Below, piece after piece: positions 55,512 through 56,777 of a DNA stretch of 64,000 bases. Source of the DNA: Sanguibacter gelidistatuariae (GTDB lineage Bacteria; Actinomycetota; Actinomycetes; Actinomycetales; Cellulomonadaceae); the NCBI RefSeq assembly GCF_900096585.1, contig NZ_FMYH01000002.1, positions 62,001-126,000 on the forward strand, written 5' to 3'. Position numbers and translations under genes: made by a program. The notes below the pieces were generated by a model, which was not told the origin of the DNA, did not search any database, and saw nothing but the letters and a program-made list of their open reading frames with translations. Position 1 is the first letter of the stretch. Each line of letters opens with the position of its first letter.

Positions 55512-55799
55512 TCAGGACGCGTCGGCGTCGGTGACGGGTTCCACGATCGGGGTGCTGGTCAGCAGGCCCGCGTTGATCTCGCGCATCGCGATCGACAGCG
55601 GCTTCTCCTGGTTGCGCGTCTCGACGAGCGGGCCGACGAACTCGAGCAGGCCCTCGTGGAGCTGGGAGTAGTACGCGTTGATCTGACGGGCACGCTTCGC
55701 GGAGAAGACGACCAAGGCGTACTTGGAGTCCACGCGGTTGAGCAGGTCGTCGATGGGCGGGTCAGTGATGCCCACGGGGGCGGCGACGGTTCCAGACAC
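55512..55799 (-). CDS. rpoZ: RNA polymerase omega subunit
   Basis: This 95-residue omega subunit helps assemble and stabilise the beta' subunit. The conserved region reads [35 protein letters not shown] and [15 protein letters not shown]. The start is GTG 55799, preceded by GGAG. It lies 55 bp downstream of gmk and 31 bp upstream of coaBC, in the usual order. Confidence 0.95.
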
Positions 55800-55854: not shown

Positions 55855-56460
55855 CTACCGAGCGCGGGTCGCCGTTGCGGGGACGCCCATCACGGACATG
55901 AGTTCGTCCGCGGCGCGTCGGACGTCGTCGTTGATGATCACGTGATCGAACTCCGGTGCTGCGGCCAGTTCGACGCGGGCGGTCGCCAGGCGTCGTTCGC
56001 GCTCCTCGGGCCCTTCGGTCCCGCGTCCGACGAGGCGCCGTTCGAGCTCGGTCCAGCTGGGCGGGGCGAGGAAGACGAACCGTGCGTCCGGCATGGACTC
56101 GCGGACCTGACGGGCTCCCTGCAGGTCGATCTCGAGCAGCGTCGCGACGCCGGCGGCGAGCTTCTCCTCGACCGGACCGCGAGGGGTGCCGTAGCTGTTC
56201 TGACCGTGCACCACGGCCCACTCCAGGAGCTCTCCGCGCTCGACCATCTCGGCGAACCGGGTGGGCCCGACGAAGAGGTAGTGGACGCCGTCCACCTCGC
56301 CGGGGCGAGGATCACGGGTGGTAGCCGAGACAGACAACCACACGTCGGGGTAGCGGGCACGGATGTCAGCGGAGACGGTTCCCTTCCCCACCGCCGTCGG
56401 GCCAGCAAGGACGGTCAGGCGGGGGGACGGTGAGCCAGCGGATGAAGCGGAGATGATCAG
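55855..56460 (-). CDS. gmk: Guanylate kinase (probable CTG start)
   Basis: This guanylate kinase phosphorylates GMP to GDP. The P-loop [16 protein letters not shown], the GMP-binding [18 protein letters not shown] and [14 protein letters not shown], and the lid [13 protein letters not shown] are all present. No ATG, GTG or TTG in frame precedes the P-loop: the first GTG (56391) is inside it and would destroy it. The best start is CTG 56460, which overlaps the mihF stop as CTGA, just like the ATGA/GTGA overlaps elsewhere here, with AAGG close upstream. This gives 201 residues, normal for the family. ATC 56457 is another non-standard option. Confidence 0.93.
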
Positions 56461-56777
56461 CCGAACCTTTCGATGAGGGCCGCTGCCTGGTGCGGACCCA
56501 GACCCCGCACACGACGACTCTCGGCAATGCCGACCTCCGTCATGATCGCGCGGGCCTTGACCTTGCCGACTCCCGGCAACGACTCAAGCAGCGAGACAAC
56601 TTTCAGTTTTCCGATGACGTCATCGGTACGGCCCTGCTCGATCACTTCAGAGAGGACCCCTGAAGAATACTTCAGGCGGTTCTTGACCTCTGCACGCGCC
56701 CGTCGGGCACTAGCGGCCTTCTCGAGCGCGGCAGCACGTTGTTCAGGAGTTAGCTCAGGTAGTGGCACTCCGGTCAC
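56457..56777 (-). CDS. mihF: Integration host factor, actinobacterial type (mIHF)
   Basis: This 106-residue nucleoid protein is of the mycobacterial IHF family, unrelated to HU/IHF of E. coli. An N-terminal helix rich in charged residues ([20 protein letters not shown]) is followed by the helix-two-turn-helix DNA-binding part ([32 protein letters not shown]). It bends DNA and affects transcription and phage integration. The start is GTG 56777 with AAGGAA upstream. mihF-gmk is a conserved pair. Confidence 0.95.

Follow-up and report, generated by a model that had tools for sequence, protein, structure and literature searches.

The window, that is, the whole stretch of 64,000 nucleotides of Sanguibacter gelidistatuariae DNA that was analysed, carries on its reverse strand the gene for guanylate kinase (gmk), identified by the TIGR03263 profile with 213.5 bits against a cut-off of 160.45 and representing the only gmk match in this genome. 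The gene is presumed to be essential, and its product is needed for making GTP. Upstream of gmk lies mihF, and on its 3' side follows a short open reading frame which, judging from its translation, we take to be rpoZ-like. Deletion of mihF in M. tuberculosis required that gmk and rpoZ be provided (PMC6155035). For the mihF gene of the window itself, two in-frame GTG codons at 56777 and 56768 (within positions 56766-56777) are candidate starts. The features at the junction of the two genes, all of them on the reverse strand, are as follows.

56457..56777, reverse strand: mihF (actinobacterial integration host factor), the gene upstream of gmk; NF041260, 145.2 bits, cut-off 60
56459-56457, reverse strand: stop codon TGA of mihF, the 3' end of which reads GAA AGG TTC GGC TGA
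56466..56471, reverse strand: Shine-Dalgarno sequence GAAAGG within the last mihF codons (GAA AGG); six pairs with the 16S 3' end, dG -7.6
56458..56460, reverse strand: CTG, candidate start of an earlier note on this DNA (CTGA overlap); in the gmk frame in five of six genus members
56455..56457, reverse strand: first ATC, alternative candidate start of gmk
56452..56454, reverse strand: second ATC, preferred candidate start of gmk, followed by TCC GCT (compare ATT TCC GC of many relatives)
55855..56454, reverse strand: gmk (guanylate kinase; TIGR03263), 199 amino acids if the start is at 56454, stop codon included
56380..56403, reverse strand: P-loop GPTAVGKG, containing GTG 56391, the first canonical codon of the frame
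55512..55799, reverse strand: rpoZ-like open reading frame 3' of gmk, named from its translation

The gmk frame is bounded upstream by an in-frame TGA (56586-56584) and is open from 56583. A codon scan from there down to GTG 56391, the valine codon of AGPTAVGKG in the P-loop, found no ATG, GTG or TTG. The earlier note had pointed out both the missing canonical start and the location of the first in-frame GTG inside the P-loop; both observations hold, and its statement that no such codon occurs "until far upstream" even understates the case, since the whole open frame has none. Beside the mihF stop, within a junction that reads GAA AGG TTC GGC TGA TC ATC TCC GCT, three near-cognate codons lie in the gmk frame, namely CTG 56460, ATC 56457 and ATC 56454. 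The earlier note had chosen the first of these, and its description of the site is accurate: CTG 56460-56458 overlaps the mihF stop as CTGA, and AAGG (56469-56466) sits 5 nt upstream. Six folds of 80 nt of junction RNA, judged by eye and without shuffles, gave no common structure.

The same picture is found throughout the genus. Upstream of the P-loop, the open frame lacks a canonical start in all six genomes of the genus, the first canonical codon lying 5 to 53 codons past the P-loop start, and in all six gmk is free of internal stops and 80-100 % identical (a second gmk match, 27 % identical, occurs in one genome only, G001). Within this genus, two different relations of the gmk frame to that of mihF occur. 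In Sanguibacter suaedae (locus L032, with an identical junction at L005), the mihF stop is followed by ATC ATC in mihF's own frame, which leaves the overlap's CTG outside the gmk frame. The first ATC, corresponding to 56457, is in the gmk frame in all six members, and five of them have an additional CTG four codons ahead of the P-loop.

The junction in the family and the order

Among 150 genomes sampled from the family, gmk was matched in 148 (all except G064 and G142), and all 148 junctions were examined. The mihF stop could be placed in 147 of these loci; the remaining genome, G145, has no readable mihF stop and was dropped, its locus (L125) showing mihF matches in two frames, probably as a result of an assembly error. 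ATT or ATC was found in the gmk frame at -1 to +3 nt from the mihF stop in 94 of the 147 genomes. Two of them (G013 and G107) have a canonical start nearby and were reset to "other", leaving 92 genomes from 18 of 25 genera in which the near-cognate codon is kept at a fixed place; the figures given below over 94 genomes still include these two. Relative to mihF, the gmk frame is +1 in 76 of the 92 genomes, +2 in 14 and 0 in 2 (in G055, retained in these counts, the script misplaced the mihF stop; its true junction is that of G015, and the corrected frames are 76, 13 and 3). In the 76 genomes with offset +1, the CTG of GGCTGA is out of the gmk frame and ATT/ATC is in it. Likewise, the named loci examined from Oerskovia, Cellulosimicrobium and Paraoerskovia (junction GAGAGGTTTGGCTGA(C/G)ATTTCCGC) and those of Promicromonospora (junction GARAGGTTTGGCTGAGATCAGTACG) have ATT or ATC in the gmk frame, but not the CTG.

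When the relatives' mihF-gmk junctions were compared for an ATG, as the earlier note had suggested, not one of the 147 family genomes was found to carry an ATG in the gmk frame between -4 and +6 nt of the mihF stop. ATT accounts for 67 of the 94 codons at the site, as compared to 42 of 1327 (3.2 %) of the ATT and ATC codons within the gmk and mihF gene bodies; taking one genome per genus, the corresponding counts are 14 of 19 and 15 of 180 (Fisher p 5.5e-10, with the remaining relatedness ignored and G013 among the 19). The gmk tree, which is weakly resolved, with 61 of 139 inner branches open, requires a minimum of 12 switches between ATT and ATC. Because the site alternates between AUU and AUC, yet none of the 147 genomes has AUG there, these comparisons suggest that the weakness of the start is itself selected. 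In 89 of the 94 genomes, ATT/ATC is followed by a codon for S, T, P or A.

Canonical codons are lacking from the last ten mihF codons to the P-loop in 18 of the 94 ATT/ATC genomes, and in 14 of these 18 the whole open frame is without one. In another 26 genomes, the only in-frame canonical codon is a TTG located 8 nt upstream of the end of the mihF stop (TTG at -8), and 50 have some other canonical codon in frame, by eye mostly well downstream. Some single cases are informative with regard to the position. In all four genomes of genus g15, the gmk frame is limited by a stop codon lying 18 codons ahead of the P-loop; the four share the same junction, and ATT is the one near-cognate near the Shine-Dalgarno sequence in the two that were printed codon by codon. 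The junction of G110 is 2 nt shorter than that of the 12 other g7 genomes, with the TTG out of frame and the ATC still in frame, and in G110 as well as in three g5 genomes the near-stop ATT/ATC is present at the -1 place only. In G075, which belongs to an ATT genus, the codon is GTG, and in G119 it is ATA, accompanied by TTG at -8.

A suitable Shine-Dalgarno sequence is present in the 12 genomes in which pairing was calculated. The best pairing with the 16S tail comprises 6 bp (GAAAGG or GAGAGG, dG -7.6 or -7.7), and the overall gap to ATT/ATC is 8-12 nt; the 16S tail motif was found in all three relatives searched but not in the window genome's own draft assembly. Counted from the last pair, the CTG is 5 nt away, the first ATC 8 nt (8-9 nt among the 12 genomes), the second ATC 11 nt (11-12 nt), the relatives' ATT/ATC at +1 10 nt and the TTG at -8 only 1 nt. 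The arginine codon of mihF that forms part of the Shine-Dalgarno sequence is AGG in 90 of the 94 ATT/ATC genomes versus 5 of 53 other family genomes (background: 133 of 3915 arginine codons in gene bodies), a link that is tied to ancestry, with only two independent pairs on supported branches. In the Cellulomonas-like genera with a downstream ATG, this arginine codon is mostly CGC or CGG.

The phenylalanine codon TTT, which creates the TTG at -8, is over-used (72 of 94 as compared to 30 of 819 phenylalanine codons), and TTG may therefore be the start, or a second start, in the genera represented by the 26 genomes mentioned above. By eye, TTT also occurs in 7 of 14 genomes that have the same mihF ending and a gmk frame which excludes the TTG. 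Ten frame-1 genomes, which have TTC, lack the TTG, and in genomes with the other two frame relations it does not fall in the gmk frame. As a general start it was rejected, since the window's genus, g3, g15 and four of six g25 genomes do not offer it and since it lies so close to the Shine-Dalgarno pairing. Outside the family, four of five f13 genomes have TTG at -8 as their sole nearby canonical codon, where it looks like the start, with CGG or CAG replacing AGG.

Elsewhere in the order, 60 of 109 non-family gmk matches were fetched, comprising 52 loci in which the mihF stop was placed, five fusions and three in which no mihF was found. The family-type arrangement of ATT/ATC after an AGG Shine-Dalgarno sequence was found in none of these 60 genomes. 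Five of them (G154, G229, G158, G160, and G193) have ATT/ATC in frame within -6 to +12 nt, and all of these except G160 also have a canonical candidate. In G160 (f12, L276), the stretch scanned is free of canonical codons and an in-frame ATT lies at +10 nt from the mihF stop; this genome may represent a further case of an ATT start. An order-wide pattern search matched 22 of 396 genomes, five of them outside the family (G273, G328, G163, G305, and G201). No gmk was found in the loci fetched for the matches in G273 and G328 (L259, L260), and the matches in G163 and G201 sit on contigs other than those of their gmk genes.

Overlaps of the GTGA type are common across the order. The CTG of a CTGA overlap is in frame in both genomes of the family genus g2, one of which (G030) has a single canonical codon, a GTG located two codons ahead of the P-loop. 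At five loci (L269, L274, and L280 in f8, L286 in f14, and L190 in g2), the open frame contains no canonical gmk start and the CTG of CTGA is the best candidate; from these junctions, CUG initiation of gmk appears plausible in f8, f14, and g2. In f19, mihF and gmk form one reading frame with no stop between them in all five fetched genomes (L318, L320, L321, L324, and L327).

Candidate starts and rival explanations

Our best reading for the window genome places AUC 56454 ahead of both CUG 56460 and AUC 56457, which are less likely. As a whole, we consider it fairly probable that gmk is initiated at AUC 56454 through coupling to mihF, with IF3 keeping initiation weak; we infer all four elements of this proposal, i. 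e., the use of AUC as a start, the coupling, the control by IF3 and its purpose in dosage, from the sequence. With the CTG of the earlier note, which overlaps the mihF stop as CTGA, gmk would start by tight coupling. This appears unlikely to us, as the CTG does not lie in the gmk frame of S. suaedae or of 76 of the 92 family genomes with ATT/ATC, where the ATT/ATC stays in frame; moreover, its distance of 5 nt from the Shine-Dalgarno pairing is short, and isoleucines would occupy residues 2 and 3. Since CTGA looks like the gmk start in other lineages, however, the CTG stays a live rival also here: it is in frame in five of the six genus members, open frames that have CTGA and lack a canonical start occur in G006 (g2), in three of four fetched f8 genomes and in one of four from f14, and GTGA takes the same place in f5 and f11 (four of four each), in f18 (two of two) and in f17 (two of the four with mihF found). 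What stands of the earlier proposal is a non-canonical start beside the mihF stop with a Shine-Dalgarno sequence inside mihF, for which the sequence speaks and to which coupling would be a probable addition; the choice of CTG as the codon is not supported. Somewhat less likely again is a start at the first ATC (56457), which would overlap the mihF stop by one base. Its distance from the Shine-Dalgarno pairing (8 nt) and its conservation in frame in all six genus members speak for it, as does the fact that its -1 place is the sole near-stop ATT/ATC position in three g5 genomes and G110. It is the second ATC, however, and not the first, that has the base context of the relatives (ATC TCC GCT, matching ATT TCC GC), and isoleucine would become residue 2 if the first were used.

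Two further explanations would dispense with a near-cognate start at the junction altogether. Synthesis of Gmk as part of a MihF-Gmk fusion product, by frameshifting or stop read-through, has natural counterparts in the in-frame fusions of f19 (all five fetched genomes) but is very improbable and was rejected, because the ATT/ATC genomes have gmk in each of the three possible frames with respect to mihF, of which two occur within the window's genus; what is kept instead is the Shine-Dalgarno sequence and the ATT/ATC. Finally, a sequencing error at the junction, which the earlier note had named as a finding that would speak against its proposal, or a decayed gmk is hardly credible. All six genus genomes likewise lack a canonical start, and an error is therefore excluded. 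The relatives also refute decay, given that gmk is uninterrupted and 80-100 % identical in these genomes and that a second match (27 %) exists only in G001; nothing was found in favour of either possibility.

Proposed mechanism and comparison with known systems

According to the reading that we prefer, with AUC 56454 as the start, a ribosome that finishes mihF at the TGA would re-initiate with fMet at AUC 56454-56452, 2 nt past the stop, and the GAAAGG site would hold the ribosome for this purpose. An alternative entry would be provided by ribosomes that bind the GAAAGG Shine-Dalgarno sequence inside the last mihF codons. The fMet-tRNA would mispair with the third base of AUC, and IF3 proofreading would be expected to discard most such complexes, probably imposing a limit on gmk as it does for infC. 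In E. coli, extra IF3 was reported to lower re-initiation, and less so with a Shine-Dalgarno sequence (PMC2268962). The AUC start would be weak on purpose, as selection seems to hold the output of gmk below that of mihF, with a steady and low Gmk:MihF ratio as the likely outcome. For annotation, the prediction is that gene calling limited to ATG/GTG/TTG will truncate gmk into or past the P-loop in such genomes.

A wider scenario is possible but, on balance, doubtful. In this scenario, gmk and infC of the family would form a small IF3-sensed set, in which free IF3 would set the translation of guanylate kinase via the AUU/AUC start and thus tie the supply of GTP to initiation capacity. Across the order, gmk would repeatedly have acquired weak starts by coupling, with AUU/AUC in this family, CUG in others and GUG in many, which hold it below the nucleoid protein encoded by the same message. 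A role of IF3 in sensing or setting the supply of GTP is speculative.

The closest known counterpart is infC. In the window genome, this gene (L253, contig C11, approximately 476898-477401) starts with ATC AGC GAG CCT after AAGGAGCATCAC, with AAGGAG as Shine-Dalgarno sequence, and in all 25 genomes in which the site was found (29 loci scanned, four of them without a motif match) the codon at the start place is ATC or ATT. The reported infC start is ATC for Streptomyces, ATT for E. coli (PMC5472188) and AUA for S. aureus (PMC13009471). The ATC of infC found here and that described for Streptomyces (PMC5472188) establish that actinobacteria initiate at AUC, for infC at least. The likeness to gmk consists in a conserved non-canonical start together with a Shine-Dalgarno sequence, the codon in the window genome's own infC being AUC as well. 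In contrast, infC is autoregulated by its product, whereas gmk encodes a metabolic enzyme and has its Shine-Dalgarno sequence and putative start at the end of an upstream gene; in addition, the codon in the family is mostly AUC for infC but mostly AUU for gmk.

As far as the reports cited here list them, the bacterial genes known to start at AUU, AUC, or AUA are few, namely infC, pcnB, cvfC1, and ccpN, with lepA by inference. Starts of the AUH type are of a known kind; a search of the open-licence literature returned no report of a non-canonical gmk start, nor of gmk as a family-wide case. Among actinobacterial genes with a non-canonical start, Streptomyces sigR, which starts at GTC, was shown to be repressed by IF3, its start setting a protein ratio within the operon (PMC5472188). 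It differs from gmk in its codon, in encoding a regulator and in being coupled to the following gene, and its start was shown experimentally, whereas that of gmk is a candidate read from sequence. The start of E. coli pcnB, AUU, is described as limiting the output of the chromosomal gene (cited in PMC9410913 and PMC1780047), although pcnB is nonessential and its context is another one. Conserved AUH starts with a strong Shine-Dalgarno sequence were furthermore reported for ccpN (AUA in S. aureus and B. subtilis) and staphylococcal cvfC1 (AUU), with approximately 10 % of the expression of an AUG reporter in poor medium (PMC13009471). These are other genes from another phylum and, unlike gmk, were demonstrated by ribosome profiling and reporters. 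To these AUH-start genes, gmk would add a presumably essential central enzyme, with a codon that is kept in 18 of the 25 genera examined.
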